Positions 1,938-26,964 of a stretch of 35,049 nt of DNA are shown piece after piece. The DNA is from Tepidimonas sp. (lineage in GTDB: Bacteria > Pseudomonadota > Gammaproteobacteria > Burkholderiales > Burkholderiaceae_C). Made by a program: the position numbers and the translations under genes. The stretch's first letter is position 1. Every line of letters begins with the position of its first letter. The stretch lies in the NCBI RefSeq assembly GCF_029335975.1, contig NZ_JARJMT020000035.1:1-35049 (forward strand), written 5' to 3'. The notes beneath the pieces are model-generated. The model was not told the origin of the DNA. It saw nothing but the letters and a program-made list of their open reading frames with translations, and did no database searches.

Positions 1938-2840
1938 TCAAACCTCCCGCCTCCACAGCGCCTGCCCAGCGCGGATCCGGCAGCCCGGCTCGACCCCGTC
2001 CGCCAGCCGCCACTGCGCTGGCACGAACAGGATGATCGTCGAGCCATGCTCGAACCATCCCATTTCCTGCCCGCGGCCCAGGCGCACATCGCAGGGCAGA
2101 TTGTGTGCGCCGCGCCAGCGCAGATGCAGCGTGATGTCGAGGAAGTGCAGCCGGATGCTGGCCACCAGGATCGCCGCCACCGGCACCAGTGCGATCGGGC
2201 TGCCGTCTGGCAGCGCCGCTTCGATCAGCGCGCGCTCGTTGCGGCAGAACAGCGCCGGGATGCGCCGCAGCGCCGGCGGGTTGACGTTGAAGACGTCCCC
2301 GTTGACGTAGCGCACGCGCTGCACATGCAGGTCGGCCGGGGCGTGGAAACGGTGGTACATCGTCGAGGTCAGCCGCAGCGTGACAAACCGCCCATTGGCG
2401 TGCACGGCCGCAGCTTCGGGGCCGATCAGGTCCTCCAGCCGGTACGGCATGCCTTTGGCCTGCCAGGCGGTGGTGCCGTGCACGTCGCCACAGGCGCCCA
2501 CAATGGCGTCGCACGGGCTGCACAGCACATTTGCGTCGGGGTCGAACGGGCGCGCGCCCTCGCGCAGCGCGCGCGTAAACACATCGCGCAGGCTGCGGTA
2601 TTCGGCGGCAGCGGCCTCGCTCAAATCCAGGTCGGCAAACAACCGCCAGATCGACAGCATGAATCGCGTCAGCGCTGGGCTGTCGATGCGGCTTAAGCGG
2701 CCCATCAGCAGCGTCAGCGCCACACGCGGCACATGGTTGGTCAAGGCGTAGTTCAGCGTCTCGTGCTGCAGCACGCGGTCGCGCCAAGCGCGCCAGCCAC
2801 GGGACGCCGCACCGATTTTCACAGGCGTGTCAAAGGCCAT
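1938..2840 (-). CDS. psd: Phosphatidylserine decarboxylase proenzyme
   Basis: Psd converts phosphatidylserine to phosphatidylethanolamine at the inner membrane and is a pyruvoyl enzyme that cleaves itself. The minus-strand frame from ATG 2838-2840 gives 300 residues, the normal proenzyme length. The self-cleavage site is visible near the C terminus as EHGSTIILF, the serine of GST becoming the pyruvoyl group of the small alpha chain. The conserved substrate-side segment YHRFHAP lies in the middle of the beta chain. A longer in-frame start exists at 3005, but the family-like sequence begins at MAFDTPVKIG and the longer start would run deep into the divergent aminotransferase gene. It is divergent from that aminotransferase with about 43 bases between starts. 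It opens a block of membrane-lipid genes. Confidence 0.93.
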   Translation of the reverse strand: MAFDTPVKIGAASRGWRAWRDRVLQHETLNYALTNHVPRVALTLLMGRLSRIDSPALTRFMLSIWRLFADLDLSEAAAAEYRSLRDVFTRALREGARPFDPDANVLCSPCDAIVGACGDVHGTTAWQAKGMPYRLEDLIGPEAAAVHANGRFVTLRLTSTMYHRFHAPADLHVQRVRYVNGDVFNVNPPALRRIPALFCRNERALIEAALPDGSPIALVPVAAILVASIRLHFLDITLHLRWRGAHNLPCDVRLGRGQEMGWFEHGSTIILFVPAQWRLADGVEPGCRIRAGQALWRREV

Positions 2841-2864
2841 GCGTACAACTGTCGCCGAACCTGT

Positions 2865-2880
2865 TGAAAGAATGGTGACA
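2865..2880 (-). promoter_or_regulatory. Weak PhoB-box-like pair upstream of psd
   Basis: On the minus strand TGTCA (2880-2876) is followed 11 bases later by TTTCA (2869-2865), the pitch of a PhoB direct repeat but with one mismatch in the second half. No convincing -10 follows. Marked because better boxes occur at two other lipid promoters nearby. It could well be chance. Confidence 0.2.
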
Positions 2881-2883
2881 ACG

Positions 2884-4605
2884 ATGATCGAACCGACCTG
2901 GTTGGGGGCTGCAGCGGCACTGGCCGCGGCACCGTGGGGTTGGCAGCGGCTGCGCCTGTCGCGTGCCAAGCATCCGTCGCTGGCCGGGCACCAGCGTATG
3001 GCCAAGCGTGTGGCCCGCTGGCTACCTGGCTATGCGCTGCAGGCGCCGCAGGCGTTTGCGCTGGACGGTGCCCCGGATCATGTGCTGCAGGCACGCTTAC
3101 AGGGCTGGCAGGCGCTATCGCAACGCCTGCGCGCTGCCGCGCCGCAGACGTTGGCGCTGACCGCGCAGGCACGCGAAGGTATGCCGGATCTGCGCCTGAC
3201 TGGGCGCTACCGCGTGCCTTATCCCTTCGCTGAGCTGGCGCGCGAGCTGCCGGTGGGGGCGTTTTGGGCACGCAATGACGGTCCGTGGCTGATCGACCTC
3301 GACGGCAACCGTTTCCTCGACTTGACTGGCTCCTACGGCGTCAACGTGCTGGGGCTGGACTTCTACAAGGACACGATGGAAGAGGGCGCACGCCTGGGGG
3401 CGGCGCTGGGCCCGGTGCTGGGCGGTCTGCACCCATGCGTGGCCGACAATGTCGCGCGGCTCAAGGCCCTCAGCGGCCTCGATGATGTAACGTTTCATAT
3501 GTCCGGCACCGAGGCGGTGATGCAGGCGGTGCGGCTGGCGCGCTACCACACCGGGCGGCGCTACGTGGTGCGCTTTGCTGGCGCCTACCACGGTTGGTGG
3601 GAGGATGTGCAGCCCGGGCCTGGCAACCCGTTGCCGCCGCGCGAGACTTATACGCTGGCCGAGATGAGCGAGGCGACCCTGGAGGTGCTGCGCACCCGGC
3701 GTGACATTGCTTGCGTGCTGGTCAACCCGCTACAGGCCCTGCACCCCAACCGCGCCGCCCCGAGCGACTCCACGCTCGCCAGCGGCACGCGCGCAGCGGG
3801 CTTTGACCGCGAAAGGTACACGCGCTGGCTGCAGCGCCTGCGCGAGGCTTGCACTGAAGCCGGCATCGCGCTGATCTTCGATGAGGTGTTCGTTGGCTTT
3901 CGACTGGCCTTGGGCGGTGCACAGGCGTACTTTGGCGTGCAGGCTGACCTCGTTTGCTATGGCAAAACACTGGGTGGTGGTCTACCCGTTGGCGTGGTAT
4001 GTGGCAAGCGGCGATGGATGGAGCGCTTCCGTCCCGAGCATCCGGCCGACCTGTGTTTTGCGCGCGGCACCTTCAACGCGCATCCCTATGTGATGGGCGC
4101 CATGAACGCCTTCCTGCGTGCGCTGGAGCGTCCGCAGGTGCGTGCCGCCTACGACGGCCTAGACGAGCGCTGGCGCGCGCGCGAGCGACGCTTCAACGCG
4201 GCGCTGGAGGCCGCTGGCGTGCCAGTGCGGGTGGCCGGGCTATCATCCATCTGGACGGTGCTCTACACCCAGCCGGGGCGCTACAACTGGTTACTGCAGT
4301 ATTACCTGCGCGATGCCGGGCTGGCGCTGAGCTGGGTGGGCACCGGGCGCCTCATCTTCCCAATAGCGCTGGAGGAGGCCGTGTTCGAGGAAGCGTTGCA
4401 GCGCTTTGTCCGCGCTTGCCACCTGATGCAGGCCGATGGCTGGTGGTGGCGCGACGAGACCCTGCCGAACACGGCCTGGGCCAAGCGCCTGCGCCGCAGT
4501 CTGCTGCGCGAGGCGCTGGCCGCTTGGCTCAGCCGGCGCGAGGATGGCCCGGATCGAGCAGCTGACCGCGCAGCAGATACAGCGGCGCGCGGTGGTACAG
4601 CTTGA
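2884..4605 (+). CDS. Class-III PLP-dependent aminotransferase (glutamate-1-semialdehyde aminomutase-like)
   Basis: A 573-residue fold-type I, class-III aminotransferase, reaction unknown. The PLP lysine sits in LVCYGKTLGGGLPVG (Lys361 from this start), preceded by the cofactor-ring aspartate in FDEVFVGFRLALGG; SGTEAVMQAVRLARYHTGR is the class-III PLP phosphate segment. The protein exceeds usual GSAM (about 430 residues) because of an N-terminal extension of about 130 residues and a C-terminal tail. The extension starts with a hydrophobic alanine-rich run that might anchor it to the membrane. In-frame starts at 2827, 2839 and 2872 are possible; 2884 and 2872 avoid overlap with psd, and none has a strong ribosome binding site. 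It is not likely to be HemL, which lacks these extensions. Its 3' end overlaps the convergent Mpo1-like gene by 77 bases. The setting suggests an amino group for a lipid head group or long-chain base, which is inference only. Confidence 0.85.
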   Translation: MIEPTWLGAAAALAAAPWGWQRLRLSRAKHPSLAGHQRMAKRVARWLPGYALQAPQAFALDGAPDHVLQARLQGWQALSQRLRAAAPQTLALTAQAREGMPDLRLTGRYRVPYPFAELARELPVGAFWARNDGPWLIDLDGNRFLDLTGSYGVNVLGLDFYKDTMEEGARLGAALGPVLGGLHPCVADNVARLKALSGLDDVTFHMSGTEAVMQAVRLARYHTGRRYVVRFAGAYHGWWEDVQPGPGNPLPPRETYTLAEMSEATLEVLRTRRDIACVLVNPLQALHPNRAAPSDSTLASGTRAAGFDRERYTRWLQRLREACTEAGIALIFDEVFVGFRLALGGAQAYFGVQADLVCYGKTLGGGLPVGVVCGKRRWMERFRPEHPADLCFARGTFNAHPYVMGAMNAFLRALERPQVRAAYDGLDERWRARERRFNAALEAAGVPVRVAGLSSIWTVLYTQPGRYNWLLQYYLRDAGLALSWVGTGRLIFPIALEEAVFEEALQRFVRACHLMQADGWWWRDETLPNTAWAKRLRRSLLREALAAWLSRREDGPDRAADRAADTAARGGTA

Positions 4606-5140
4606 TGTCGTGGAATGGGTCGGTGACGATTTTCGTTACCCAGACGAGACCGGTGTAGAGGTCTTTCTCGACCCACAATTGCAGCACCCGCACCAGCAGG
4701 CCGCCGATACCAATGGCGAACCACAGCCAGCCCACGTTATGCCAAAAGCCACGCCAGTCCTCGTGCGGCTGCAACCATCCGAAGGCCGTTGGGTCCCACA
4801 CCAGCAGCAGGGGTGAGGCGGCCCACACCGCCATCAGCACCACTTTGCGCCGCAGGTTGTAGCCGACCTTGACCGCCTCCTTGTACTCGTGCGTAACTTG
4901 GTTGACGTGGTCATAGCCCTTCGGCTCGAAGAAAAAGTGCCCCGATTGGCGCGTCACCATCGAGATGCCCCAGGCGATCAAGGCTGCGGTGGCTGGATCC
5001 CGGAATAGCCAGGCGTAGGCGAGCACGAAGCTGATTGCACTGATGAAATGCAGCGTCTGGTTGATGCGGCTTTGATGGTAGTAGCGGTGGTCATCCCATC
5101 GTTGCTCATGCAGCGTATTCAAAAAGCGTTTCAACATCAT
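4529..5140 (-). CDS. Mpo1-like (DUF962-type) integral membrane protein
   Basis: A 203-residue membrane protein with several hydrophobic segments (about residues 30-60, 95-115 and 133-155). Near the N terminus it has YHQSRINQTLH, which fits the YHxxxxNxxxH signature I associate with the Mpo1/YGL010w family, followed by SGHFFFEPKG and further histidines in HEYKE and FHDIKLYHRAP. Yeast Mpo1 is an iron-dependent dioxygenase that shortens 2-hydroxy fatty acids by one carbon in the endoplasmic reticulum. Whether this bacterial relative does the same is unknown. The start ATG at 5138-5140 has GAGGA about 8 bases upstream. The gene converges on and overlaps the aminotransferase 3' end, and it is divergent from the glycosyltransferase, sharing a 170-base control region with it. 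Confidence 0.7.
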   Translation of the reverse strand: MMLKRFLNTLHEQRWDDHRYYHQSRINQTLHFISAISFVLAYAWLFRDPATAALIAWGISMVTRQSGHFFFEPKGYDHVNQVTHEYKEAVKVGYNLRRKVVLMAVWAASPLLLVWDPTAFGWLQPHEDWRGFWHNVGWLWFAIGIGGLLVRVLQLWVEKDLYTGLVWVTKIVTDPFHDIKLYHRAPLYLLRGQLLDPGHPRAG

Positions 5141-5233
5141 TGTGGGTCCTCATCCAGGGGAGACAGGGGAGCGGAACTGCGTGTGCCAGGCAGGCATGAC
5201 GGGCCCGGCGAGTGTCATGGTTGCGACATCGTG

Positions 5234-5249
5234 TGACGCCACGGTGACG
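5234..5249 (-). promoter_or_regulatory. Possible PhoB box facing the Mpo1-like gene
   Basis: On the minus strand CGTCA (5249-5245) recurs exactly 11 bases later (5238-5234), each one mismatch from TGTCA. It points toward the Mpo1-like gene and lies in the control region shared with the glycosyltransferase. No good -10 is visible at the expected distance. Confidence 0.3.
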
Positions 5250-5268
5250 TCCACGCCCGCAGCACGGA

Positions 5269-5285
5269 CTGTCATATGCGTGTCG
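5269..5285 (+). promoter_or_regulatory. PhoB box upstream of the GT4 glycosyltransferase
   Basis: CTGTCAT begins at 5269 and GTGTCGC follows at an 11-base pitch (TGTCA 5270-5274, TGTCG 5281-5285). This closely matches the direct-repeat PhoB site and its spacing. By analogy with the pstS promoter, where the -10 starts 16 bases after the second repeat starts, the -10 would lie at about 5297-5302, where the match to TATAAT is poor, as is usual for activator-dependent promoters. The start codon is only 25 bases past the box. Confidence 0.6.
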
Positions 5286-5310
5286 CACGCTGTGGCCAAG
5301 CTCACCGGTC

Positions 5311-6561
5311 ATGGATGCACGCCTAACGATCGAGAGATTTCCGCCACGCCGTGCGCTGCTGCGCGTCTCGGTGGTTACCGAAACCTTCCCACCCGAAATC
5401 AACGGCGTGGCAACGACAGTGGAGCGGCTGGTGCGTGGGCTGCAGTTGCGCGACCACGATGTGCAGGTGGTTCGGCCGCGCCAGGCAGCCGACGCCTACG
5501 ACCACGACGGCAGTCGCTTAGGGCTGGAGCAGGTCCTCACGCGCGGCCTGCCCATCCCGCGCTACCCTCAGTTGCGCATGGGGTTGCCGGCGCAGCGTGC
5601 GCTACAAGCGCTGTGGATGCGCCGCCGGCCTGACCTGGTGCACATCGCCACCGAAGGGCCGCTGGGATGGTCGGCGCTGCGCATCGCGCGCAAGCTGCAG
5701 CTGCCGATCAGCACGGACTTTCGCACCCACTTCGATGCCTACAGCGAACACTATGGTGTGGGCTGGCTGCGCCGCTCGGTGCAAGCCTACCTGCGGCGCT
5801 TTCATAACCACGCGGACTGCACGCTGGTGCCCACTGAGGGCCTGAGCCAGCAACTGCGCGCGGCGGGATTCGAGCGGCTGATCGTCGTGCAGCGCGGGGT
5901 AGACACACAACGCTTCACCCCAGCGCTGCGCCACCCAGCGTTGCGTGCGGTCTGGGGCGTGCAAGATGGCGAGCGTGTGCTGTTGTATGTGGGCCGTCTG
6001 GCGCCGGAGAAAAACTTGGCACTGCTGGTCAACGCCTACGAGGCCATGCGCGCCGCAGCGCCGAACTGGCGACTGGTGGTGGTGGGCGACGGGCCGCAGC
6101 GCGCCTGGTTGACACAGCGTTGCCCGCAGGCGGTGCTGCTGGGAGCGTTGACCGGCGAGTCGCTGGCCCAGGCCTATGCCAACGGCGACTTGTTGGTCTT
6201 TCCCAGCCTGACGGAGACTTACGGCAACGTGACGCTGGAGGCATTGGCCAGCGGCCTGCCGGTGCTGGCCTTTGACTACGCCGCAGCGGCCGAGGTGGTG
6301 CGCCAGGGTGACAGTGGCCTGTTGGCGCCGGTGGGAGATGCAGATGCTTTCCTGCAGCTCGCCCGCGCGGCGGCCGTCGACGAGATGCTGCTGCAGCGGC
6401 TGCGCACCGGCGCGGTGCAAGCAGTGCAGCACTTGAGCTGGGAGCGCATCGTCGAGCAGGTGGAGTCGATTTGGCTGCGGTTGTTGGCGGCGCACGCGGC
6501 CGGGCCGGCAGTGGTCAAGTCCTCCCCGTGGTGGGACGGTCTGCCCGCCACCGGCGCGTGA
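5311..6561 (+). CDS. GT4-family glycosyltransferase, probable diacylglycerol glycosyltransferase (Agt/MgtA-like)
   Basis: A 416-residue retaining GT-B enzyme. The N-terminal acceptor domain starts RVSVVTETFPPEINGVATTV, as in the MgtA/PimB-like branch of GT4. The donor domain shows YVGRLAPEKNLALLV and the E-x7-E nucleotide-sugar motif FPSLTETYGNVTLEALASG. Members of this branch put hexose, glucuronate or mannose on diacylglycerol or phosphatidylinositol. In alphaproteobacteria such an enzyme (Agt) acts with PlcP to replace phospholipid by glycolipid when phosphate is short. Here a PlcP-like gene lies 2 kb away and a PhoB box sits directly upstream, so I infer an Agt role; sugar and acceptor are not readable from sequence. 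The ATG at 5311 has no ribosome binding site and would lie at or next to the predicted transcript start. The 3' end overlaps the convergent lplT-like gene by 47 bases. Confidence 0.82.
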   Translation: MDARLTIERFPPRRALLRVSVVTETFPPEINGVATTVERLVRGLQLRDHDVQVVRPRQAADAYDHDGSRLGLEQVLTRGLPIPRYPQLRMGLPAQRALQALWMRRRPDLVHIATEGPLGWSALRIARKLQLPISTDFRTHFDAYSEHYGVGWLRRSVQAYLRRFHNHADCTLVPTEGLSQQLRAAGFERLIVVQRGVDTQRFTPALRHPALRAVWGVQDGERVLLYVGRLAPEKNLALLVNAYEAMRAAAPNWRLVVVGDGPQRAWLTQRCPQAVLLGALTGESLAQAYANGDLLVFPSLTETYGNVTLEALASGLPVLAFDYAAAAEVVRQGDSGLLAPVGDADAFLQLARAAAVDEMLLQRLRTGAVQAVQHLSWERIVEQVESIWLRLLAAHAAGPAVVKSSPWWDGLPATGA

Positions 6562-7789
6562 GCGCCCACAGCAGCGCCAGTCCCAGCGCCATCACCGCAC
6601 CAAGCGCGGACAGCAGCGGCACCAACGGCCAGTCGGCGTGCATCGCCAAGGCGAGTGCCCCCAACATGACCAGCACGCTGGCGTTCTCGTTGAAGCCCTG
6701 GATGGCGATCGACTGCCCCGGCTGCAATAACCGGTGGCCGCGATACTGCAACAGCGCATTCATCGGCACCACGAGCATCCCCCCCAGCGCCCCGATGATG
6801 AGCAGCCCCGACACCGCCAAATCCAGCCTTCGGGCATGCACGGCCACTGCCAGCAGCATCCCCAGCGCCACCCCGAGAGGCAAAACGCGCCAGGCCCTGC
6901 GCAGTTCCACCCGACGCGCCACCCACATCGCGCCGGCCACCACACCCAGCGCAACAGTGGCCTGTAGATAGGCCGCTTGCGACAGTGGCAATCCCAGCCG
7001 CAACTCGGCCCAACGCAGCACGGCGATCTGCATCAATGCGCCAAAGCCCCAGAACCACGTCGTCACCGCCAGCGACAGCCCGCCGAGCGGGTCCCGCCAC
7101 AGGCGCAGGTTGTCTCGCCAAAAGCGTGGCCACAGCGCTGGCCAGTCGCCCAGCCGCAGCACACGCCGTGCCGGCCGGGATGGGATGTGGCGGTTGCACC
7201 AGGCCGCCAGCCCATACAGCGACAGCACCGCTGCAAACGCTGGCAGCAGCGCCGTCGTGGTCAGCCAACCGTGCAGCCCCAGCGACGCAGGCGCGTGTGG
7301 CGACTGCCAGGTTGGCGACACCCACCAGCCACCCAGCGCGGTGCCCAGTAGCACTGACAACACCACCGAGACTTCCACCCAGCCGTTGGCGGCCACCAAA
7401 TCGCGTCCCGGTGTCGACTCGGTGATCCAGCCATATTTGGCTGGCGCGTACAACGCCGCCGCCAGCCCCAAGAGCGCGAAAGCCGCCAATGGGTGCGCAC
7501 CTGCCAGCAGGGCCACCACCGCTGCTGCCTTCAGCGCATTCATACGCCCCATCAGTACGTTCTTGCGCACGGCATCGGCCCAGGCACCGGCCACCGGCGC
7601 GAGCAGCACATAGCTCCAGGTAAAGGCAAACTTCAGCAGCGGGGCCCACCACTGTGGGTGGCGCTGCTCCTGTAGATAGGCGATCGCGACGATCAGCACC
7701 GCATGGTCGGCCAGCCCTGAGAGGAACTGCGCCGCCAGCAACCAAAAAAAACCCGCTGGCATGGGGGCTGCAGTCTGGCCAGGCTGCAT
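6515..7789 (-). CDS. lplT: Lysophospholipid transporter LplT-like (MFS)
   Basis: A 424-residue major facilitator protein with about 12 hydrophobic segments. It opens FFWLLAAQFLSGLADHAVLI and has the LplT-type loop ALYAPAKYGWITESTPGRDL followed by NGWVEVSVVLSVLLG. In E. coli LplT flips lysophospholipids across the inner membrane for re-acylation by Aas, and lplT and aas are adjacent. No aas is next to it here. Its neighbours make or break membrane lipids, so it may retrieve lyso-lipids produced by remodelling, or carry lyso-ornithine lipid; both are inference. The ATG at 7787-7789 faces a 143-base region shared with olsB. The stop at 6515-6517 lies inside the glycosyltransferase 3' end. Confidence 0.85.
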   Translation of the reverse strand: MQPGQTAAPMPAGFFWLLAAQFLSGLADHAVLIVAIAYLQEQRHPQWWAPLLKFAFTWSYVLLAPVAGAWADAVRKNVLMGRMNALKAAAVVALLAGAHPLAAFALLGLAAALYAPAKYGWITESTPGRDLVAANGWVEVSVVLSVLLGTALGGWWVSPTWQSPHAPASLGLHGWLTTTALLPAFAAVLSLYGLAAWCNRHIPSRPARRVLRLGDWPALWPRFWRDNLRLWRDPLGGLSLAVTTWFWGFGALMQIAVLRWAELRLGLPLSQAAYLQATVALGVVAGAMWVARRVELRRAWRVLPLGVALGMLLAVAVHARRLDLAVSGLLIIGALGGMLVVPMNALLQYRGHRLLQPGQSIAIQGFNENASVLVMLGALALAMHADWPLVPLLSALGAVMALGLALLWALTRRWRADRPTTGRT

Positions 7790-7823
7790 GACATGCGCAT
7801 GAAGCCTGTGGTTTTGCGCCCGG

Positions 7824-7861
7824 TGTCATGTCGCTGACACGGAACCGCCAAAGCCGTGTCA
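7824..7861 (+). promoter_or_regulatory. PhoB-box-like 11-bp repeat array upstream of olsB-plcP
   Basis: TGTCA at 7824-7828 and again at 7857-7861 are exactly three 11-base turns apart. The intermediate phases read TGACA (7835) and CGCCA (7846). This looks like a degenerate four-unit PhoB site pointing to olsB. The first two units also form a perfect inverted repeat, GTGTCA-N6-TGACAC at 7823-7840, so the site could be a palindromic operator read in both directions, including toward lplT. No strong -10 is seen; TATCCA at 7869-7874 is a weak candidate. Confidence 0.42.
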
Positions 7862-7932
7862 CGCCGGCTATCCAAGATCCCCCCCGTAGGCGGCCTCGGC
7901 GCCGCCCGACACTCAAGCGGAGATGATGCCCG

Positions 7933-8790
7933 ATGAAAGAGCTTCCGACGCCCACGCTGCACCTGTCCACTGTGGTTGGGGGCCAGACCCCGGGCCGTAC
8001 GGCCGGGAGGTTGCTTCCAGCGCGCGCGGCCGCTGCTGCCGTTGCGTCCGCTGCGCGCTTGGAGGTGGCGTGGGCGCGCCACCTCGAGGACGTGCGCGCC
8101 GCCCAGCGACTGAGGTACACCGTGTTTGCCGAGGAGATGGGGGCGCGATTGCGTTCGCCATTGCCTGGGTACGATATCGACCTGTTTGACGACTACTGTG
8201 AACATTTGCTGGTGCGCGAAGCCGACACCGGCGAAGTGATCGGTACCTACCGCGTGCTCACCCCGGCTCAGGCCAAGCGGGTTGGGTGCTTTTACAGCGA
8301 CACCGAGTTCGACTTGACCCGGTTGCGCGCGCTTCGCGAGCAGATGGTCGAGCTCGGCCGCTCGTGTGTGCATCCTCAGCACCGACATGGCGGGGTCATC
8401 ATGGCGCTGTGGGGGGCGCTGGCGGACTTCATGGTGCGCAACCGGCTCGATGTGATGATCGGCTGCGCCAGCATCCCGATGCATTACGAGGGTCCGCACG
8501 GCATCGCTGGTGGCGGCCACGCCGCAGCCAGCATATGGCGTCAGGTGCGCGAGCGCCACCTGGCACCGGTGGAGTTCCACGTCACCCCGCGGTTGCCTCT
8601 GCCGGTGCACGAGCTGGATGACACGCTCCCGGTGGAGCCGCCGGCGCTGGTCAAGGGCTACCTGCGCCTGGGTGCCAAAGTGCTGGGTGCACCAGCGTGG
8701 GATCCAGACTTCAACACGGCCGACCTGCCGATGATGATGCGACTGGCGGACCTGCCGACGCGCTACCGTCGCCACCTGTTGGGGGTGTGA
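7933..8790 (+). CDS. olsB: OlsB-like ornithine/amino-acid N-acyltransferase (GNAT fold)
   Basis: A 285-residue protein of the OlsB type (COG3176-like GNAT). OlsB joins a 3-hydroxyacyl chain from acyl-ACP to the alpha-amino group of ornithine, giving lyso-ornithine lipid, the first step of a phosphorus-free membrane lipid. The family core is clear: AAQRLRYTVFAEEMGA near residue 57, DDYCEHLLVRE, GTYRVLTP, then VELGRSCVHPQHR, the usual acyl-carrier region, and YLRLGAKVLGAPAWDPDFNT near the end. A GGAG stands about 11 bases before the ATG. The O-acyltransferase OlsA, needed to finish ornithine lipid, is not in this window. The stop overlaps the next start (TGATG), so it is cotranslated with the PlcP-like gene. 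The amino acid used is inferred from family only. Confidence 0.85.
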   Translation: MKELPTPTLHLSTVVGGQTPGRTAGRLLPARAAAAAVASAARLEVAWARHLEDVRAAQRLRYTVFAEEMGARLRSPLPGYDIDLFDDYCEHLLVREADTGEVIGTYRVLTPAQAKRVGCFYSDTEFDLTRLRALREQMVELGRSCVHPQHRHGGVIMALWGALADFMVRNRLDVMIGCASIPMHYEGPHGIAGGGHAAASIWRQVRERHLAPVEFHVTPRLPLPVHELDDTLPVEPPALVKGYLRLGAKVLGAPAWDPDFNTADLPMMMRLADLPTRYRRHLLGV

Positions 8791-9713
8791 TGCTGCGCAG
8801 CGACACTGTGGCGGGGCGCACGGCTCGCTGGCCGGATGCCGCGCTGGCGGCCAACCGGAGCGCGCCGACCGTGACGCTGGAAGGACACCGCATCGAGCCC
8901 GACGAGGATGACCATCCCGCCGAAGGTCGGGAGCGCCTGCGTACGGTGTTCATCTCCGACCTGCACCTGGGCACACCAGGCTGCCAGGCCAAGGCGCTGC
9001 TGGCGTTCCTCAAGGCACACCCAAGCGACCGGCTGTACCTGGTCGGTGACATCATCGACGGATGGCAGCTGCGCAGGCGTTGGTACTGGCCACAAAGCCA
9101 CAACGACGTCGTACAGAAGATCCTGCGCCGCGCGCGCAAAGGCTGCCGAGTCGTGTTCATCCCTGGTAATCATGACGAATTTGTGCGGGAATTCGTTGGC
9201 CATCCGTTCGGCGGGGTGCATGTGGTGGCAGAAGCCGTACACGAGACTGCCGATGGGCGACGCTTGTGGGTAACGCATGGCGACCTGTACGACGGTGTGG
9301 TCCAGTACGCCAAGTGGTTGGCCTATTTGGGCGATACGCTGTACGAATGGGCGCTGCGACTAAACCGCCATGTCAACTCATGGCGTGCCCGCATGGGGCT
9401 GCCCTATTGGTCGCTGTCGCAGTACCTCAAGCACCGCGTCAAGTCGGCCGTCAGCTTCATCACCCGATTCGAGGAAACGCTGGCGCAAGAAGCGCGCAGG
9501 CGCGGGTTGGACGGCGTGGTCTGTGGCCACATCCACCGGCCGGAGATGCGTGTTATTGATGGCGTGCTGTATTGCAACGATGGTGACTGGGTGGAGAGCC
9601 TCAGCGCTCTGGTCGAGCATGCGGATGGTCGGTTGGAGATCGTCCACTGGGCGCAGGAGCCGCCGACCGTCCCCGCCCCGGTCAGGGCCTCACCCCATCG
9701 CGCTCGCGCCTGA
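8790..9713 (+). CDS. plcP: Metallophosphoesterase, probable phospholipase C PlcP (LpxH-like family)
   Basis: A 307-residue calcineurin-type phosphoesterase with every metal motif in order: FISDLHLGTPG, LVGDIIDGW, IPGNHDEF, VTHGDLYDG and VCGHIHRPEM. The segment RRWYWPQSHNDVVQKILRRA is what I recall from the PlcP group rather than from true LpxH. PlcP removes phospho-head groups from phosphatidylcholine or phosphatidylethanolamine to give diacylglycerol under phosphate starvation, yet is often annotated UDP-2,3-diacylglucosamine diphosphatase. LpxH is about 240 residues; this protein has an N-terminal extension of roughly 50 residues of low conservation, so a later start is possible. It follows olsB with a one-base overlap. 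The alternative, a lipid A pathway LpxH, is less likely in this setting but cannot be excluded without a tree. Confidence 0.8.
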   Translation: MLRSDTVAGRTARWPDAALAANRSAPTVTLEGHRIEPDEDDHPAEGRERLRTVFISDLHLGTPGCQAKALLAFLKAHPSDRLYLVGDIIDGWQLRRRWYWPQSHNDVVQKILRRARKGCRVVFIPGNHDEFVREFVGHPFGGVHVVAEAVHETADGRRLWVTHGDLYDGVVQYAKWLAYLGDTLYEWALRLNRHVNSWRARMGLPYWSLSQYLKHRVKSAVSFITRFEETLAQEARRRGLDGVVCGHIHRPEMRVIDGVLYCNDGDWVESLSALVEHADGRLEIVHWAQEPPTVPAPVRASPHRARA

Positions 9714-9829
9714 GCCCCCAGCAGAGTCGGCACATCACAGATGGCGTCATCGATTGCAAGCCTGGAACGAAAATAATGATACGCTAAAGCCGCGTGGCCC
9801 ACTGCCTGGTCACGTTCCTGTCCTCGACC

Positions 9830-11917
9830 ATGATCCAAGCCGCCTTGAACTCCGTCCACCGTCACGTTTTTCTCGATCGCGACCAAAGCATCCTGGCCTT
9901 CAATGAGCGCGTGCTCGACTGGGCATATCGAGCCGATGTCCCGCTGCTGGAGCGGCTGCGTTATCTGGCCATCGTATCGTCGAATCTGGATGAGTTTTTC
10001 GAGGTGCGTTTTGCGCCGCACCACACAGCCCGCCTGAACAACGAACAGCGCGGAGTCGCCACGATCGATACCTACCGCGCCCTGACGCAGCGGGTGCACG
10101 CTCTGGTCGAGCGGCAATATACGATTTACAACCACGAGCTGCTGCCGGCGCTGGAAAAACGCGGCATACGCATCATCACCCACAGCCAACGCAATCCCCG
10201 TCAGCGCCGCTGGGTACGCGAGTACTTCGTCAACGAAGTGCAGCCGCTGCTGGTACCGGTGGGACTGGATCCGTCTCATCCATTTCCCCAGGTCGCCAAC
10301 AAGTCGCTCAACTTCATCGTACGGCTGGGGGGGCGTGATGCCTTCGGGCGCGAAAACGAAATCGCCATCGTCAAGGTGCCGCGGGCGCTCAAACGGTTCG
10401 TCCCGATGCCCGGCGTCAAAGGCTCCAAGCAGCTGCATTTCGTCTCCATCTCCAGTATCATCCGCTCGCATCTGACGGATCTATTTCCCGGACGGTCGGT
10501 GCTGGAGTTTTCTCAATTCCGCGTGACCCGCCACTCCGACCTCGCGGTGGATGAGGAAGAGGTCAAAAATCTGCGCACTGCGCTGAGGCTGGGTCTGCAA
10601 AAGCGCCATTACGGCCAGGCCCTGCGGCTGGAGGTGTCGGCTGGTTGCTCCGACTTCTTGGCGGGCTTTTTGCTCGAGCAATTCAACCTCCCTCCCGAGA
10701 GTCTCTATCGCGTGGCAGGCCCGGTAAATCTCGTGCGCCTCAACCAGCTGGTGGACCAGATCGATGCGCCAGCGCTGCGTTTTGAGCGCTTTACACCCGG
10801 CTGGCCGGCGGCGCTGGCGCCTGGGCAGTCGTTCTTCGAACGGCTCAAGCAAGGGGATGTGCTCATCCACCAGCCGTTCGAGAGTTTTGACGCCGTGTTG
10901 GCCTTCCTGCGCGAGGCGGTGGAAGACCCTCAAGTGCTTGCCATCAAGCAAACCATCTACCGCACCGGCTCGCGCGGCGAGATGACCGAGCTGCTGCGTG
11001 ATGCGGTGCGGCGCGGAAAAGAAGTCACCGCCGTGGTGGAGCTCAAAGCTCGCTTCGACGAGGAGGCCAACATCAACCACGCCGAGCGACTGGAGTCGGT
11101 CGGCGCGCAAGTGGTCTACGGCATCGTAGGCCTGAAAACCCACGCCAAAATGCTGCTCGTCACCCGACGCGAGGAAGGGCGGCTCGTGCGTTATGCGCAT
11201 GTTTCCACCGGCAACTACAACCCGGGTACGGCCAAGGCCTACACGGACCTGAGCTATCTCACCGCCGACGAGGCGCTGACTGCAGATGTCGATCACATCT
11301 TCGGTCACCTGGCCAGCCAGAATCGGCTGCCCCGACTGCACAAGGTGCTCATGGCGCCGTTTCATCTGCACAAAGGGATGCTGGAGCGCATCGACGCCGC
11401 CATCGCAGCAGCCAAGGCGGGGCAACCCGCGCAAATCATCCTCAAGGTGAATGCCCTGACGGATGAGCCGCTCGCACGGGCGCTGGTCCTCGCCTCGCAG
11501 GCCGGTGTGCAGGTCGATGCAATCGTGCGCGGCGCGTGCATCCTGCCGGCCGGGGTTCCTGGACAGACGGACAATGTGCGAATCCGCTCGGTGATCGGGC
11601 GCTTCCTCGAGCATTCGCGGGTGTACTACTTCCGCTGCGGTGATCAAGAGGAGCTGTGGCTGTCCAGCGCCGACTGGATGAACCGCAACATGCTGCGCCG
11701 GGTCGAACTGGCCTGGCCTGTGACCGATCCCCATTTGCGCGCCCGCGTCATGGACGAGTGTCTGCATTTGTATTTGGCCGATCAGCGCGATGCCTGGCTG
11801 CTGCAGCCGGATGGCAACTACATCAAAGCCGCATCGCTGGCCACCAAGCCCTCGCGCGGCAGCGGCTTGCCATCGGCGCAAGCCAGCCTGATGGGCCGCT
11901 ACGGCACCAAGGGATGA
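9830..11917 (+). CDS. ppk1: Polyphosphate kinase 1
   Basis: Ppk1 reversibly builds inorganic polyphosphate from ATP gamma-phosphate and is membrane-associated. The 695-residue frame has the N-terminal helical domain (RDQSILAFNERVLDWA, SSNLDEFFEVR), the phosphate-binding middle domain, and the two phospholipase-D-like C-terminal domains. The catalytic phosphohistidine lies in GLKTHAKMLLV, followed by RYAHVSTGNYNPGTAKAYTD. An upstream in-frame GTG at 9794 is less likely because family sequence starts at MIQAALNSVHRHVF. The 116-base gap after plcP has TTGCAA (9754-9759) and an A+T-rich TAATGATACGCT, a weak possible promoter, with no clear PhoB box. The stop overlaps the sixA start as ATGA. Position between lipid remodelling, ppx and pst genes fits a phosphate-management locus. 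Confidence 0.96.
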   Translation: MIQAALNSVHRHVFLDRDQSILAFNERVLDWAYRADVPLLERLRYLAIVSSNLDEFFEVRFAPHHTARLNNEQRGVATIDTYRALTQRVHALVERQYTIYNHELLPALEKRGIRIITHSQRNPRQRRWVREYFVNEVQPLLVPVGLDPSHPFPQVANKSLNFIVRLGGRDAFGRENEIAIVKVPRALKRFVPMPGVKGSKQLHFVSISSIIRSHLTDLFPGRSVLEFSQFRVTRHSDLAVDEEEVKNLRTALRLGLQKRHYGQALRLEVSAGCSDFLAGFLLEQFNLPPESLYRVAGPVNLVRLNQLVDQIDAPALRFERFTPGWPAALAPGQSFFERLKQGDVLIHQPFESFDAVLAFLREAVEDPQVLAIKQTIYRTGSRGEMTELLRDAVRRGKEVTAVVELKARFDEEANINHAERLESVGAQVVYGIVGLKTHAKMLLVTRREEGRLVRYAHVSTGNYNPGTAKAYTDLSYLTADEALTADVDHIFGHLASQNRLPRLHKVLMAPFHLHKGMLERIDAAIAAAKAGQPAQIILKVNALTDEPLARALVLASQAGVQVDAIVRGACILPAGVPGQTDNVRIRSVIGRFLEHSRVYYFRCGDQEELWLSSADWMNRNMLRRVELAWPVTDPHLRARVMDECLHLYLADQRDAWLLQPDGNYIKAASLATKPSRGSGLPSAQASLMGRYGTKG

Positions 11918-13920: not shown

Positions 13921-14015
13921 GCGAGGCGCCGTTTTGTCGTTTGACAGAGGTTGTTCAGCATACCAGAGTGGCTCGTCATCCCCTCTGCGGGCCCAGCGGC
14001 GAACAGAAACCGCCA

Positions 14016-14048
14016 TGTCACGAACTTGTCATAAGCTACACCTATGCT
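14016..14048 (+). promoter_or_regulatory. PhoB box and -10 of the pst-pho operon
   Basis: TGTCA at 14016-14020 and TGTCA at 14027-14031 are exact direct repeats with an 11-base pitch, the textbook PhoB half-site pair replacing a -35. TATGCT at 14043-14048 is a good -10, one to two mismatches from TATAAT. Transcription would start near 14055, giving a leader of about 50 bases with GGAG before the pstS ATG. This is the best regulatory site in the window. Confidence 0.85.
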
Positions 14049-15103: not shown

Positions 15104-15715
15104 ATGAATCGATTGCATTGGATGGGCGCGGCGGTGGCTGCTGCCTTTTTGGCTGGCTGTGCGACGCAGCCGGCCACCGCTCCAACCGCCGCCACCCAAT
15201 CAGAGGCGGCCAAGCCAGCTGCGACCTCTGCCGCCACGCCCGCGGCATCCACGGCGCAGGCGCGCGAGTTCTATGTCGTGCTGCCCGAGGATGGTCGGTA
15301 CTACGCATTTGGCACATTCAAGCTCTATCAGGACTACTTGGCGCATGGCGAAGTGCCGTTGACCCGCACCCGTATTGGCGCGGGGCCAAACGGTCGCACC
15401 GTGGTGTTTGCCATCACCAACGACGATGTCAAGCGCGGCCAGGCGAGTGTGCCGGAGCAAGTATTCGACGGCAAACTGGGCGCTGCCGCGGACTTCTATG
15501 GCGAAGTGTTCAAGGACGGTCGCTACTACGTGTTCGACGAGCTGAAGGACCTGATGGATTTCGCCGCCTTCGGCGAGGTGCCGTATTCGTTTACCGATAT
15601 CGGCGCGGGCCCCAACGGCGCGACCGTCGTCTGGGTCATGAATAAGACGTCCTATGCCAAGGGGCGTCCTGCGGCGCGCATCGAACGCTTCAAGCGCTTG
15701 CGCCAGGGTGGCTAA
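15104..15715 (+). CDS. Uncharacterised lipoprotein with a duplicated domain, inside the pst operon
   Basis: I do not recognise a named family. The 203-residue protein has a lipoprotein signal with lipobox LAGC (Cys19), then an Ala/Thr/Pro-rich tether of about 35 residues. Two 58-residue repeats follow: residues 55-112 (EFYVVLPEDGRYYAFGTFKL...) and 130-187 (DFYGEVFKDGRYYVFDELKD...). By hand count 27 of 58 positions are identical. Shared landmarks are DGRYY, GEVP and IGAGPNG-TVV. It is probably anchored in the outer or inner membrane facing the periplasm. A clear TCTGGAGCG ribosome site precedes the ATG. It is 16 bases after pstS and precedes pstC, so it shares PhoB control. A role as a periplasmic helper of PstS, or as a phosphate or phospho-compound sensor, is guesswork. 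Confidence 0.88.
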   Translation: MNRLHWMGAAVAAAFLAGCATQPATAPTAATQSEAAKPAATSAATPAASTAQAREFYVVLPEDGRYYAFGTFKLYQDYLAHGEVPLTRTRIGAGPNGRTVVFAITNDDVKRGQASVPEQVFDGKLGAAADFYGEVFKDGRYYVFDELKDLMDFAAFGEVPYSFTDIGAGPNGATVVWVMNKTSYAKGRPAARIERFKRLRQGG

Positions 15716-23524: not shown

Positions 23525-25963
23525 TCACCAAAGCGCGCCTATGTTTTTGGGCAAGTCGTCAGCGTACAGGCGGGTTTGAGGCTCCAGCAGGTAAACCAGT
23601 GTAAGTCCGAAGACCTGATCACGGTAGGCTGGGCCTCTTCGGTAACCCAGGCTTGCGGTTACTTGCCATTGGTCAGAGAGGCGGGCCACAGCACGAAGTT
23701 CCACCTGGCCAGCCAGACCATTTTTGCGCTCGCCGGGATAGGCGTTGGTGCAAATCGTCGGTGTGGCCGGTGCGGCAAGCGGGTGACAAGGGGCACTGTC
23801 GCGCTCGATGCTTTGCCACTGGGCACTCAATCGACCGGAAAGTAGCCAGCGTGAATGGCTGACGGTCTGAAATTGCAAAGCTGCTCCGGCACTGACAAAA
23901 CTGCGCGGGCTGAAGTAACCACCATGGCCCCAGGTGAACGCAGACAAGTCGCGCCGATAGCCTTCCCAACCCAGGCTCGGCCCCGCTTGTAGGAAGTAAA
24001 AACCGGCTGCGTCGAACGTGCGCATCAGCTCCACGCGCACAGCCGCTTGTTGGTTGTCCTCAACCGAGCGTCCGGTCAGGCGTGCGAAGCGTACTTGACC
24101 AGCCAACGACCATTGATCTGTCCAGCTGAGTCTGCGGTAACCGTCGACCAGTACGCCATCGCTTATCACCCTCCCCCAAGGCTGGCCACTGTTTGGGTCG
24201 CGCAATCCGATGAGCGAAAGAGCCGAGTCGCGAACCGGCTCGCGAAAGAGCGCGCTGCGCCATGCATGGTTCTCCGCTGTCTCCCGCCAGGCCAACTCGA
24301 AAGTAGCGGTAGCGGGTATGAGCGCGCCAGCGGGGGTCGTGCCGATGGCGAATTCAGGGCCGCTGCCTCCCAAATACGACCAGCGCAGCTGCACCGCGGG
24401 ATGCGTTCCAGTTCGAGTGCTGACGGCAGGTTGTCCGAGAACGGCAGATCCGAACGGAAGACTTTGCGCAGTCATCCCGGCATCGGCCCCGATTCCGCTG
24501 AGCTCGGCCTGGAACCAGCCATCGGCGAGCGGTGCCGCGAGTTCGAGCTGTGGTGCATGGCGCAATCGGAGATGGCTGCCCCCCGAGCTGCCTGATTTAT
24601 CGCGCGCTGCCCATCCCACGCTGATGCGCGGAGCCAGCACGCCCCTCAGCTCAGGCAGTCGTCCCGCTGGGGCGACATGCGCAGCAGAACGAGCCCGCCC
24701 TTGACTCAATAGTTGCTGCGCTCGCCAGCTTTGCCATTCATCGGCCAAGGGCCCGGGATCGACAGCGGCCAGGCGTGCGAGTTCCTCTGTCCGATTCAAG
24801 CGAATCAGGTGACCCGCCAAAGCCGCGGCCGTCGCATCGTCAGGACGCAGGCTGTAGGCGCGAGCCCAATACTTCGCTGCGTCCTCATTCGACAACCGGG
24901 CTTCAGCATTGGTGGCCAACAAGATGTGTTGGTCCGCACTGTCGGCGTCATCGCGCAAAGCCGCAACAAGCCAGCGGTATTCCTCTTCGTACCGCTGTTG
25001 GGCGCGCGCTTGCTGGGCGAGCCGGTTGGCCATTGCCGCTCGCTGCTGCTCGGCCTGCGGCAAACCGTGCAGCAGCTCGTAGGCGGCTTCGATCTCGCCC
25101 TGTTCCTGGAGGGCAGCTGCGAGTGCTTTGCGCCATTCGATGCGCGGTTCGGCGACCAAAAGAGACCGCCATAACGCGACGGCTTCGGCCCAGAGTCCCC
25201 GCCGTTGTGCATTCCAGGCCAACCGCTCGCGCAGTCCGATTGCGTCACCGTCGGCGTTGGCCAGAGCGCGCCGCAGCCAGTCGGCCTCGGCTGCTTCTTC
25301 TCCATTCATGCGTGCCTGCTCGGCTAGGGCGTCCGCCAAATCTCTGAGTTCCGCAGCCGCCCCTGGCAGCGGCTCCAGCAGCGCATAGGCCTCCTGCCCA
25401 GCTCCCCTGCGCACATAGATTTGTGCAAGACCGCGGCGCGCCGGGGCGTTGTCAGGTTCACGTGTTAGGGCCTGGGTAAACCATCGTTGAGCTTGGTCCT
25501 CACGGCCCGCGGTCAAGAGCACCCAGCCCAATCGTTGCAGTAGGTCGGCGCTGGCCACGGTTTCTAACCAATCGCTGTCCGCTTCTATGCGAGCGAGCAA
25601 AGCGCTCACGGAGTTGGTGCTTTCCGCCTCTGTCAGCAATGTGTGCCAAAGCGCTTGAGGAGCCAAGGTGCGGGCGTTGGCAGAACGCCGCGACATCTTT
25701 TTCTTGGGAGGAGTTCGCACCTCGGGGTTTTGCTGAGTAGCGGCCACCGCTTTGGACGGGGGGGCTGGCGCCTGTTTCGACGGAGGGGTGGCTATCTGGA
25801 CATCAGATCTGTACACTCGATCATCACGGCGCACGATGGCAGCGCCAGAATTTGGCTGACGCTCCAGCTGAAGGTCGTGTTCTTGGCGCATCAGGAGCTG
25901 TGGTAAACCGGCGGCTTGGGCGCTCCAAGCGTAGGCTGCGACTAGGGCGATTGACCATCTCAT
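23525..25963 (-). CDS. bcsC: Cellulose synthase outer-membrane export subunit BcsC (short form)
   Basis: BcsC carries the glucan through the periplasm and outer membrane: a TPR scaffold followed by a beta-barrel. From ATG 25961-25963 (MRWSIALVAAYAWSAQA, a signal peptide) the protein is 812 residues, well below the about 1150 of E. coli BcsC, so the TPR superhelix is shorter. TPR-like helices cover about residues 110-430 (AQRWFTQALTREPDNAPARRGLAQIY is one). A lysine/proline-rich linker with PPSK and PPKKK lies at about 60-95. The barrel begins near 480 and ends in an aromatic residue (Trp). The start overlaps the bcsZ stop as ATGA; a longer in-frame opening to 26392 has non-family sequence and is rejected. 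Confidence 0.9.
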   Translation of the reverse strand: MRWSIALVAAYAWSAQAAGLPQLLMRQEHDLQLERQPNSGAAIVRRDDRVYRSDVQIATPPSKQAPAPPSKAVAATQQNPEVRTPPKKKMSRRSANARTLAPQALWHTLLTEAESTNSVSALLARIEADSDWLETVASADLLQRLGWVLLTAGREDQAQRWFTQALTREPDNAPARRGLAQIYVRRGAGQEAYALLEPLPGAAAELRDLADALAEQARMNGEEAAEADWLRRALANADGDAIGLRERLAWNAQRRGLWAEAVALWRSLLVAEPRIEWRKALAAALQEQGEIEAAYELLHGLPQAEQQRAAMANRLAQQARAQQRYEEEYRWLVAALRDDADSADQHILLATNAEARLSNEDAAKYWARAYSLRPDDATAAALAGHLIRLNRTEELARLAAVDPGPLADEWQSWRAQQLLSQGRARSAAHVAPAGRLPELRGVLAPRISVGWAARDKSGSSGGSHLRLRHAPQLELAAPLADGWFQAELSGIGADAGMTAQSLPFGSAVLGQPAVSTRTGTHPAVQLRWSYLGGSGPEFAIGTTPAGALIPATATFELAWRETAENHAWRSALFREPVRDSALSLIGLRDPNSGQPWGRVISDGVLVDGYRRLSWTDQWSLAGQVRFARLTGRSVEDNQQAAVRVELMRTFDAAGFYFLQAGPSLGWEGYRRDLSAFTWGHGGYFSPRSFVSAGAALQFQTVSHSRWLLSGRLSAQWQSIERDSAPCHPLAAPATPTICTNAYPGERKNGLAGQVELRAVARLSDQWQVTASLGYRRGPAYRDQVFGLTLVYLLEPQTRLYADDLPKNIGALW

Positions 25964-26964
25964 GGCGTACCCTCGCGTGCGGCCAACTGGGCCAATAGGA
26001 CGAGCGTGGCTGGATAGTAGTCGAGATCCTCGAAGCGGGGCATGACAGAGCTGGGCACTTGAATGCCCAGCAAGGCTGCGATGGCCGTCACACCAGCAAA
26101 GCCACCCCAGCCATCGACAGCATCCAAATCGAAATCGGTCCAGGCGGGCAGCCGTTTGGTGCAGGCGTATCCCCCCCAAAACGCGCGGAAGGGCGCCAGT
26201 ACGAGCTCGTCGCGCTCTCCAGCCCAGGCGAGGTAAAGGGGAATGCGCAGTGCGTCGTATCCGAACCGCGCCGGCCACCCAGGAGCTGGGCGCAGCGGAT
26301 CGGCCAGAAGCAGCCAGTCGGGCGGCAGACTCCAGCGGCCGAAACGCGCCAGCCGAAGCAGCTCGCGGCCGCTGGTACGCAGGGCAGGCCATACGGGATC
26401 GGGGTCGGCGCGCGCCAGCTCCTCGATGGCGGGGAACACCCAGTAAGAAAGGTTAACCACCGCTCCTTCCGGCCGATCGAAGCCCGCGGGCGCCGGCTTG
26501 AGCACGGGCCCCCAGGCACTTGCGGCGATGAGGTGGTGCCGGATGGCCGACGCTAAAGCCAGTCCTTGTTCGCGATAGTCGGCGCGTCCAAAGCGCTCGG
26601 CGGCGCGAAGCAAGGCCCAGGTAACGAGGAGGTCGCCGTCTGCCGCGGCGTTGGCATCTTCCACACCGCGCTGCGGATGGTAGCGCCAGGCAAGCAGGCC
26701 GTCTTCACGTATCGCCAGATGCGTTCGGGTCCAATTCCACAGGCGATCGAAATGGGCGGTGTCAGCAGCCGCTTCAGCGAGCAGCATGCCGTAGCCCTGA
26801 CTCTCTGATGTACTCACTCCACCCTGACCGGTATCGATCACCCGCCCGTCGGCAGCGACGAAGCGAGTGCGCCATGTCTGCCACAGCGCAGGATCCAACG
26901 CATGGGCAGGGAGCACAAAACTGGCCATGAGGCAGCAAAGAACGAAGCTGAGCAAACGCCTCAT
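25960..26964 (-). CDS. bcsZ: Periplasmic endo-1,4-beta-glucanase BcsZ (GH8)
   Basis: BcsZ trims cellulose during synthesis. From ATG 26962-26964 the protein is 334 residues with a signal peptide ending VLPAHA. The GH8 acid is Glu54 in STSESQGYGMLLAEAA and the second catalytic acid is Asp237 in FGYDALRIPLYLAW; DANAAADGDLLVTWALLRAA is the substrate-binding strand expected between them. Length and motifs match the enterobacterial enzyme. The gene overlaps bcsB and bcsC by four bases each. An in-frame extension up to 27078 lies inside bcsB and lacks a signal peptide at its own start. Confidence 0.95.
   Translation of the reverse strand: MRRLLSFVLCCLMASFVLPAHALDPALWQTWRTRFVAADGRVIDTGQGGVSTSESQGYGMLLAEAAADTAHFDRLWNWTRTHLAIREDGLLAWRYHPQRGVEDANAAADGDLLVTWALLRAAERFGRADYREQGLALASAIRHHLIAASAWGPVLKPAPAGFDRPEGAVVNLSYWVFPAIEELARADPDPVWPALRTSGRELLRLARFGRWSLPPDWLLLADPLRPAPGWPARFGYDALRIPLYLAWAGERDELVLAPFRAFWGGYACTKRLPAWTDFDLDAVDGWGGFAGVTAIAALLGIQVPSSVMPRFEDLDYYPATLVLLAQLAAREGTP

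Follow-up and report, generated by a model that had tools for sequence, protein, structure and literature searches.

The window analysed here is the whole of contig NZ_JARJMT020000035.1 (35,049 nucleotides), one entire contig of a 2.15-Mb draft genome of Tepidimonas (Burkholderiales) that is 91% complete. It carries a gene block that is probably (at roughly 80%) a PhoB-controlled locus for the replacement of phospholipid, with a PlcP phospholipase C, a glycolipid-forming glycosyltransferase of family GT4 and an ornithine-type lipid route; this estimate excludes the chemistry of the three-gene cassette described below. The gene order is glmM, psd, AT3, an Mpo1-like gene, GT4, lplT, an olsB-like gene, plcP, ppk1, sixA and ppx, followed on the pst side by pstS, pstC, pstA, pstB, phoU, phoB and phoR (psd, the Mpo1-like gene, lplT and ppx are on the minus strand). 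The initial annotation had named psd, GT4, LplT, an OlsB-like protein and a phosphoesterase as one block, and all five were recovered by coordinates and family scans. It had overlooked two genes between psd and GT4: AT3 (2884-4605), a class-III pyridoxal phosphate (PLP) aminotransferase, and the Mpo1-like gene (4529-5140). Its description of the surroundings holds: the olsB stop and the next ATG share one base (TGATG), a layout for cotranslation, and both the polyphosphate genes ppk-sixA-ppx and pst-phoBR lie near olsB-plcP.

Under the proposed scheme, low phosphate would lead PhoB to switch on GT4, mpo1, AT3 and olsB-plcP. PlcP would split phospholipids into a phosphorylated head group and diacylglycerol. 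The Agt2-type GT4 would join glucuronic acid to the latter, giving glucuronosyl-diacylglycerol (GADG). An ornithine-type lipid would come from the OlsB-like enzyme together with an OlsA-like acyltransferase whose gene lies elsewhere, while Ppk and Ppx would buffer the phosphate released. The Psd-AT3-Mpo1-like set, under the same control, may work on membrane lipids at an undescribed step. Pfam and NCBIfam models were scanned against ten proteins, Psd through PstS with SixA excepted; glmM, sixA and the genes downstream of pstS were identified from open reading frame (ORF) translations. The lipid genes are as follows.

1938-2840, minus strand: cassette-type phosphatidylserine decarboxylase (Psd), a second copy; PF02666 177 bits, TIGR00163 168.5 bits (above the cut-off of 111.75)
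2884-4605, plus strand: AT3, class-III PLP aminotransferase with an N-terminal helical extension; PF00202 112 bits, predicted PLP lysine K361
4529-5140, minus strand: Mpo1-like membrane protein; PF06127 22.1 bits, just below the cut-off of 24, hence "Mpo1-like"
5311-6561, plus strand: Agt2-type GT4, predicted GADG synthase; 48% identity to Pseudomonas aeruginosa Agt2, clade support 99/98
6515-7789, minus strand: LplT lysophospholipid transporter, divergent from olsB; NF008397 409 bits (above the cut-off of 297)
7933-8790, plus strand: OlsB-like amino-acid N-acyltransferase (GNAT); PF13444 126 bits
8790-9713, plus strand: PlcP, a metallophosphoesterase and predicted phosphate-starvation phospholipase C, from identity and tree

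By its sequence relationships the 8790-9713 protein is PlcP and not the lipid A enzyme LpxH. The Sinorhizobium meliloti PlcP used as a reference, presumably SMc00171, adjoins a LuxR regulator and an acyl-homoserine lactone (AHL) synthase; the P. aeruginosa reference sits in the order plcP-glycosyltransferase-cyclase. The window protein is 51% identical to the former and 56% to the latter. The two references are 46.6% identical to each other, and the available text of PMC8528852 gives 46%. In a 42-row tree, whose LpxH rows include two solved LpxH, 30 PlcP and 12 LpxH sequences were separated at 100/100 and the window protein fell on the same side as both reference PlcP; very long branches occur at L238 on the PlcP side and L224 on the LpxH side. 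The initial annotation had called the phosphoesterase PlcP and proposed such a phylogeny, which, together with a separate LpxH gene in the genome, bears it out. Relatives of PlcP occur in 149 of 398 genomes of the phylum at E <= 1e-20. One Burkholderiales genome (G050) has two PlcP-like genes at separate sites (L068, L069).

The window GT4 is predicted to make GADG. The P. aeruginosa Agt2 reference, 48% identical to it, is the gene directly after plcH-plcR and is taken to be PA0842 from the PAO1 gene order. In a 51-row GT4 tree, P. aeruginosa Agt2, five relatives, the window protein and the latter's cassette relatives form one clade at 99/98; one Acinetobacter baumannii gene is placed inside the cassette GT4 group. 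Among the GT4s found beside plcP in other loci, six of seven group with P. aeruginosa Agt1 (fork 100/100), and the seventh (L071) is an outlying long branch. The earlier proposal that the window GT4 is the Agt partner of PlcP needs changing: the protein is Agt2-type and travels with psd-AT3-mpo1, not with plcP. A profile of plcP-side GT4s searched against the genome gave the window GT4 as best match (246 bits; the next reached 36). It is the only Agt-type glycosyltransferase found by profile search, which detected no Agt1-type (plcP-side) one in this 91% complete genome. Identity as the plcP-side Agt was rejected: the plcP-side clade is separate and no other member of it was found in the genome. 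Since Agt2 produces GADG from UDP-glucuronate, as stated in the part of PMC8528852 available, GADG is the predicted product. The Agt of Agrobacterium tumefaciens and SAR11 make both GADG and MGDG (PMC4796936, available text), so the tree alone cannot give the choice of sugar.

An ornithine-type lipid route is probably present. The OlsB-like protein reached 160 and 148 bits on OlsB equivalog models (cut-offs 350 and 320). An OlsA candidate elsewhere in the genome (L088:2787-3734, beside pyrB- and pyrC-like frames read by eye) scored 150 bits on the OlsA model (cut-off 300) versus 90 on the PlsC-type TIGR00530, and the only other PF01553 match in the genome (L089) scored 83 bits on TIGR00530 and 42 on OlsA. 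The OlsB/OlsA of A. baumannii make lysine lipids as well as ornithine lipids (PMC11828411, available text).

Putative Pho boxes of the locus are non-random and mostly conserved. The TGTCA repeats reported in the initial annotation were all found where it had placed them, the pstS pair (14016/14027) being perfect. The sites are listed below with a 14-position score based on CTGTCAYN4CTGTCAY, a published consensus relaxed at the final base of each half.

2864-2881, minus strand: Pho-box-like site facing psd, 11 of 14
5233-5250, minus strand: Pho-box-like site facing the Mpo1-like gene, 10 of 14
5269-5286, plus strand: predicted Pho box of GT4, 12 of 14; TGTCA at 5270, TGTCG at 5281 (one mismatch)
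7823-7862, plus strand: predicted tandem Pho boxes of olsB-plcP; TGTCA at 7824, TGACA at 7835, CGCCA at 7846, TGTCA at 7857, 11-base pitch
9807-9824: Pho-like site before ppk1, 11 of 14
14015-14032, plus strand: pstS Pho box, the reference site; the sole perfect TGTCAN6TGTCA in the draft genome

Across the 70,064 positions of the window a score of 12 was reached by the GT4, olsB and pstS sites only. Searching TGTCAN6TGTCA genome-wide with at most one mismatch gave 39 hits, or 36 distinct sites after removal of three palindromic duplicates. Six distinct sites lie within the window versus 0.59 expected (P = 2.4e-5); five of these are upstream of block genes or pstS, and the sixth (18249) is within the pstA reading frame. 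In other loci of the same genus (as grouped by the genome collection used) the GT4 box recurs at the same place in eight of eight, with scores of 10 to 13. A site scoring at least 10 stands at the place of the olsB box in seven of eight (not in L039), and the psd-facing site scores 10 or 11 at the same distance in the seven other loci that hold psd. The olsB tandem box could serve lplT too, because its first pair is near-palindromic.

A scan of reference genomes gave at least 578 candidate AT3 loci, of which the best 80 of 578 were used as named loci, a choice biased to close relatives. Sites scoring at least 11 on the strand of the gene and within 170 bases were counted, with the mirror pattern as control (numbers in brackets); for each gene, loci were excluded if they lacked a usable start or offered too little sequence. 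Such sites precede mpo1 in 74/79 (6), GT4 in 61/76 (10), AT3 in 33/79 (1), olsB in 9/12 (0), ppk in 7/8 (1) and agtB in 0/3 (0); the loci are related, and these counts are not independent. Among 3000 random 170-base windows of the same loci, boxes included, 3.1% held a site of at least 11. Family f66, a non-betaproteobacterial one from another class, has six loci, with AT3 sites scoring 13 (L121, L123, L125 and L127), 12 (L124) and 11 (L122). Their glycosyltransferase sites score 14 in L121 and 13 in L122 and L124, and at most 10 on their own strand in L123, L125 and L127. The AT3 sites of L133-L138 are uneven, 12 at best. Predicted Pho-box sequence is thus conserved upstream of GT4, olsB, mpo1 and in part AT3, and weak for psd and lplT.

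The Psd-AT3-Mpo1 cassette is the new part of the locus and its most unusual part. Psd had been described simply as a member of the block; it is present, as a second, cassette-type copy. Its pyruvoyl self-cleavage motif is retained as HGST (the other Psd of the genome, G000:C144, has LGST), and HGST was found in 66 of 66 selected Burkholderiales cassette Psds. In AT3, K361 and D333, taken to be the PLP lysine and the aspartate in their usual roles, are invariant across 35 aligned sequences. The closest solved relative of AT3 in both sequence and fold (predicted model, pLDDT, i.e. predicted local distance difference test, 82.7) is the AMT domain of mycosubtilin synthase (6kfm), with 27% identity over the fold alignment. 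That domain aminates a keto group on an acyl chain; unlike it, AT3 stands alone as a protein and has a helical extension at its N-terminus. Glutamate semialdehyde aminomutases are also among the sequence kin of AT3. HemL (glutamate-1-semialdehyde aminomutase) itself was rejected, at 171 bits versus a cut-off of 527, and ethanolamine-phosphate phospholyase was not favoured, with no chain so named in the best 60 of 63 solved-chain matches. In the Mpo1-like protein His18, His22, His31, His68 and Glu72 are invariant in the alignment of 35. Its AlphaFold model (pLDDT 89.1) is nearly all helical and found no structural match in the PDB at E <= 0.001.

Relatives of AT3 occur in 25 of the 398 phylum genomes at E <= 1e-90: four in this order (source included), one elsewhere in the class and 20 in other classes, these last apparently largely alphaproteobacterial. 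At least two Psd matches were found in 24 of the 25 (in G155 one is a 22-bit fragment) and one in G186. Twenty of the 24 other AT3 loci were fetched, leaving out G186, G217, G417 and G436. The genes psd, AT3 and mpo1 stand together in all 20, in other genera and at least two classes. A glycosyltransferase lies near the cassette in 16 of the 20 (window type in three, Agt1-type in seven, a weak GT4 match in six), with no match in L129-L132. Where the match is weak, three measured frames are 911 to 958 residues long and the gene order differs. In L121, L128 and L130, the three loci scanned, all of other classes, a methyltransferase adjoins mpo1 and scores 134-151 bits on the PmtA model (cut-off 390). 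In L133 a two-domain acyltransferase (PF19576 + PF13444) follows the cassette, an architecture as in OlsF. An alphaproteobacterial case is found on a 385-kb plasmid of Sphingomonas parapaucimobilis (L245:8045-12137), whose labels read asd-labelled Psd, aminotransferase, hypothetical protein and methyltransferase. Within 9.5 kb of AT3 in the best 80 of 578 loci, mpo1 was found in 80, psd in 77, GT4 in 77, lplT in 40, plcP in 29 and olsB in 12. LplT, which the initial annotation had counted as a block member, is present in the window and lies near the cassette in 40 of these 80 loci.

A second sample consisted of 40 PlcP-centred loci from relatives. In the eight loci of the same genus everything from the Mpo1-like gene through ppx is retained; L036 has no psd or AT3, since it begins at a contig end, and the pst side is different in L032 and L039. 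In 16 of the 40, none of the same genus, a different GT4 follows plcP on the same strand and is 30-34% identical to the window GT4. The olsB gene directly precedes plcP in 16 of 40. A window-type GT4 with psd-AT3-mpo1 is also present in L052, L054, L055 and L057, four loci in which olsB does not immediately precede plcP. Two further loci, L166 and L179, unite ppx, sixA, ppk, psd, AT3, mpo1, GT4, lplT, an Agt1-type gene, plcP, olsB and an olsA-like gene (the latter 40 and 32% identical, respectively).

Several results weigh against a PhoB-controlled replacement locus. No full PlcP match was found in two of ten other same-genus genomes. Seven of the 25 AT3 genomes likewise gave no PlcP match; PlcP is therefore no strict requirement for the cassette. 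The genome is 91% complete and gene absences in it are not proof. The cassette GT4 group itself is supported at 88/77 only, and its sugar is a prediction; with OlsB and OlsA both below the equivalog cut-offs, the scores do not fix the amino acid. Sites scoring at least 11 (mirror control in brackets) are few upstream of lplT (9/40 (0)), psd (8/77 (0)) and plcP (1/29 (0)), and the AT3 sites of the f56 and f63 loci (L128-L132) score no higher than 10 or 11.

The rival explanations differ in how much of the locus they touch. A lipid A role for the phosphoesterase, as a second LpxH or otherwise, in a neighbourhood formed by coincidence, is very improbable. Databases do label its relatives UDP-2,3-diacylglucosamine diphosphatase: in a plasmid collection 28 records carry PlcP relatives at E <= 1e-30, 23 of them under this label and five without a listed gene. 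The initial annotation had warned of this misannotation, and the label is misleading for PlcP relatives. The window protein also matches the LpxH models weakly, at 52 bits (NF003743, cut-off 134) and 43 bits (TIGR01854, cut-off 190.35), both below the cut-offs. A better LpxH, however, lies elsewhere in the genome (G000:C197), with cysS- and ppiB-like frames next to it; its 223 bits on NF003743 exceed the cut-off, whereas its 175.5 bits on TIGR01854 fall short. The window protein matches P. aeruginosa LpxH at 23% over 100 residues (E 0.015), versus 56% for the PlcP of that species. On tree, identities, scores and the separate gene, an LpxH identity was rejected. It is also improbable, though less so, that the TGTCA-like sites are due to chance or belong to another regulator. 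The second half-site of GT4 is TGTCG, and the genome has many sites with one mismatch or none; the reversed pattern, used as a control, gave 21 genome-wide hits versus 39, so many of the isolated sites elsewhere are chance. Against this reading, the sites far outnumber those of the mirror control in up to 79 loci, keep their position upstream of the same genes and reach 13 and 14 of 14 in the f66 loci.

For the cassette it is possible, if on balance unlikely, that it merely supports phospholipid turnover and no new lipid is made: an extra Psd would raise phosphatidylethanolamine (PE) for PlcP, and AT3 and the Mpo1-like protein would clear head-group or fatty-acid products. The retained self-cleavage motif of the cassette Psd fits this, as do the PmtA-like methyltransferase in three loci of other classes and the ethanolamine-phosphate phospholyases known among enzymes of the class-III aminotransferase fold. 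PlcP matches are also found in 18 of the 25 AT3 genomes versus 149 of 398 overall (by genus, 8 of 11), although these genomes are not independent, nine of them being one genus. Against mere turnover stand the second Psd present in nearly all AT3 genomes, the closeness of AT3 to the AMT domain of mycosubtilin synthase and to glutamate semialdehyde aminomutases, the lack of a phospholyase-named chain in the best 60 of 63 matches and the seven AT3 genomes where PlcP was not found. A glycosyltransferase is moreover the commoner neighbour (16 of 20 fetched loci, and 77 loci versus 29 for plcP in the best 80 of 578). The best guess at the chemistry is that the cassette yields an amine-bearing derivative of a phosphorus-free lipid or of its head group. 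In its full form, a doubtful proposal, the cassette would be an undescribed Pho-regulated pathway in at least two Pseudomonadota classes that makes a new phosphorus-free, amine-bearing membrane lipid. From the enzyme classes, the Mpo1-like oxidase would turn a 2-hydroxy-acid-like site into a keto group, AT3 would aminate it, the Psd-type enzyme would decarboxylate the resulting amino acid to an amine, and a PmtA-like enzyme, where present, would methylate the amine. The substrate would likely be glucuronosyl-diacylglycerol from the neighbouring Agt-type glycosyltransferase, and the product a zwitterionic or cationic stand-in for PE or phosphatidylcholine (PC). The cassette as a whole seems to respond to phosphate, and its study could bring a new membrane lipid to light.

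Among known systems, the closest is the PlcP-Agt system of P. aeruginosa (PA3219 plcP, PA3218 agt1, PA0842 agt2). Its PlcP is 56% identical, its Agt2 (48%) falls in one clade with the window GT4, and, in the available text of PMC8528852, Pho boxes lie upstream and ornithine lipid is made under phosphate stress. In P. aeruginosa, however, agt2 is apart from plcP, beside plcR-plcH, whereas in Tepidimonas the GT4 sits with psd-AT3-mpo1, olsB is directly before plcP and profile search found no Agt1-type gene in the genome. In the P. aeruginosa plcP-agt1 record a small gene annotated as Mpo1-like (L243:7432-7749) is found one gene past agt1; this may be chance or a hint of an Mpo1-like role in glycolipid remodelling. 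The marine plcP neighbourhoods of types 1-6 (Sebastian et al., PMC4796936) likewise combine plcP with a glycosyltransferase and Pho boxes, but the main-text description there has no olsB-plcP, psd, aminotransferase or Mpo1-like gene. Compared with S. meliloti PlcP and Agrobacterium Agt, PlcP is alike (51%), but in the S. meliloti record plcP is beside the LuxR regulator and AHL synthase, with no glycosyltransferase among seven listed features.

The initial annotation had presented PlcP plus Agt as an alphaproteobacterial system; it is known there, and from gammaproteobacteria too (PMC8528852, available text). The PlcP, Agt and ornithine-lipid routes are all already known, including in gammaproteobacteria (PMC8528852, PMC4796936, PMC9239053, PMC11828411, as far as their available text goes). 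No description of the psd-AT3-mpo1 set was found in the open-access literature, a scope that leaves most subscription papers outside. With the present results, Tepidimonas and related Burkholderiales join the bacteria that have a PlcP-type remodelling locus; GADG is predicted as their glycolipid, and a conserved predicted lipid cassette that recurs in distantly related bacteria comes to light.

The remaining genes of the block and the start of the pst side are given below.

9830-11917, plus strand: ppk1, polyphosphate kinase; NF003918 1023 bits
12436-13920, minus strand: ppx/gppA, exopolyphosphatase; PF02541 228.6 bits
14107-15087, plus strand: pstS; TIGR02136 274 bits; the pst-phoU-phoB-phoR frames continue to 23513 (read from translations)

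No tRNAs and no Rfam families at gathering score were found in the window. The gap between pstS and pstC holds a small lipoprotein-like ORF (15104-15715), which is present at this position in all five further same-genus loci where both genes are visible (L034-L038). After phoR, a cellulose-synthase-like (bcs) gene set occupies 23525-31507 on the minus strand, as judged from translations only.

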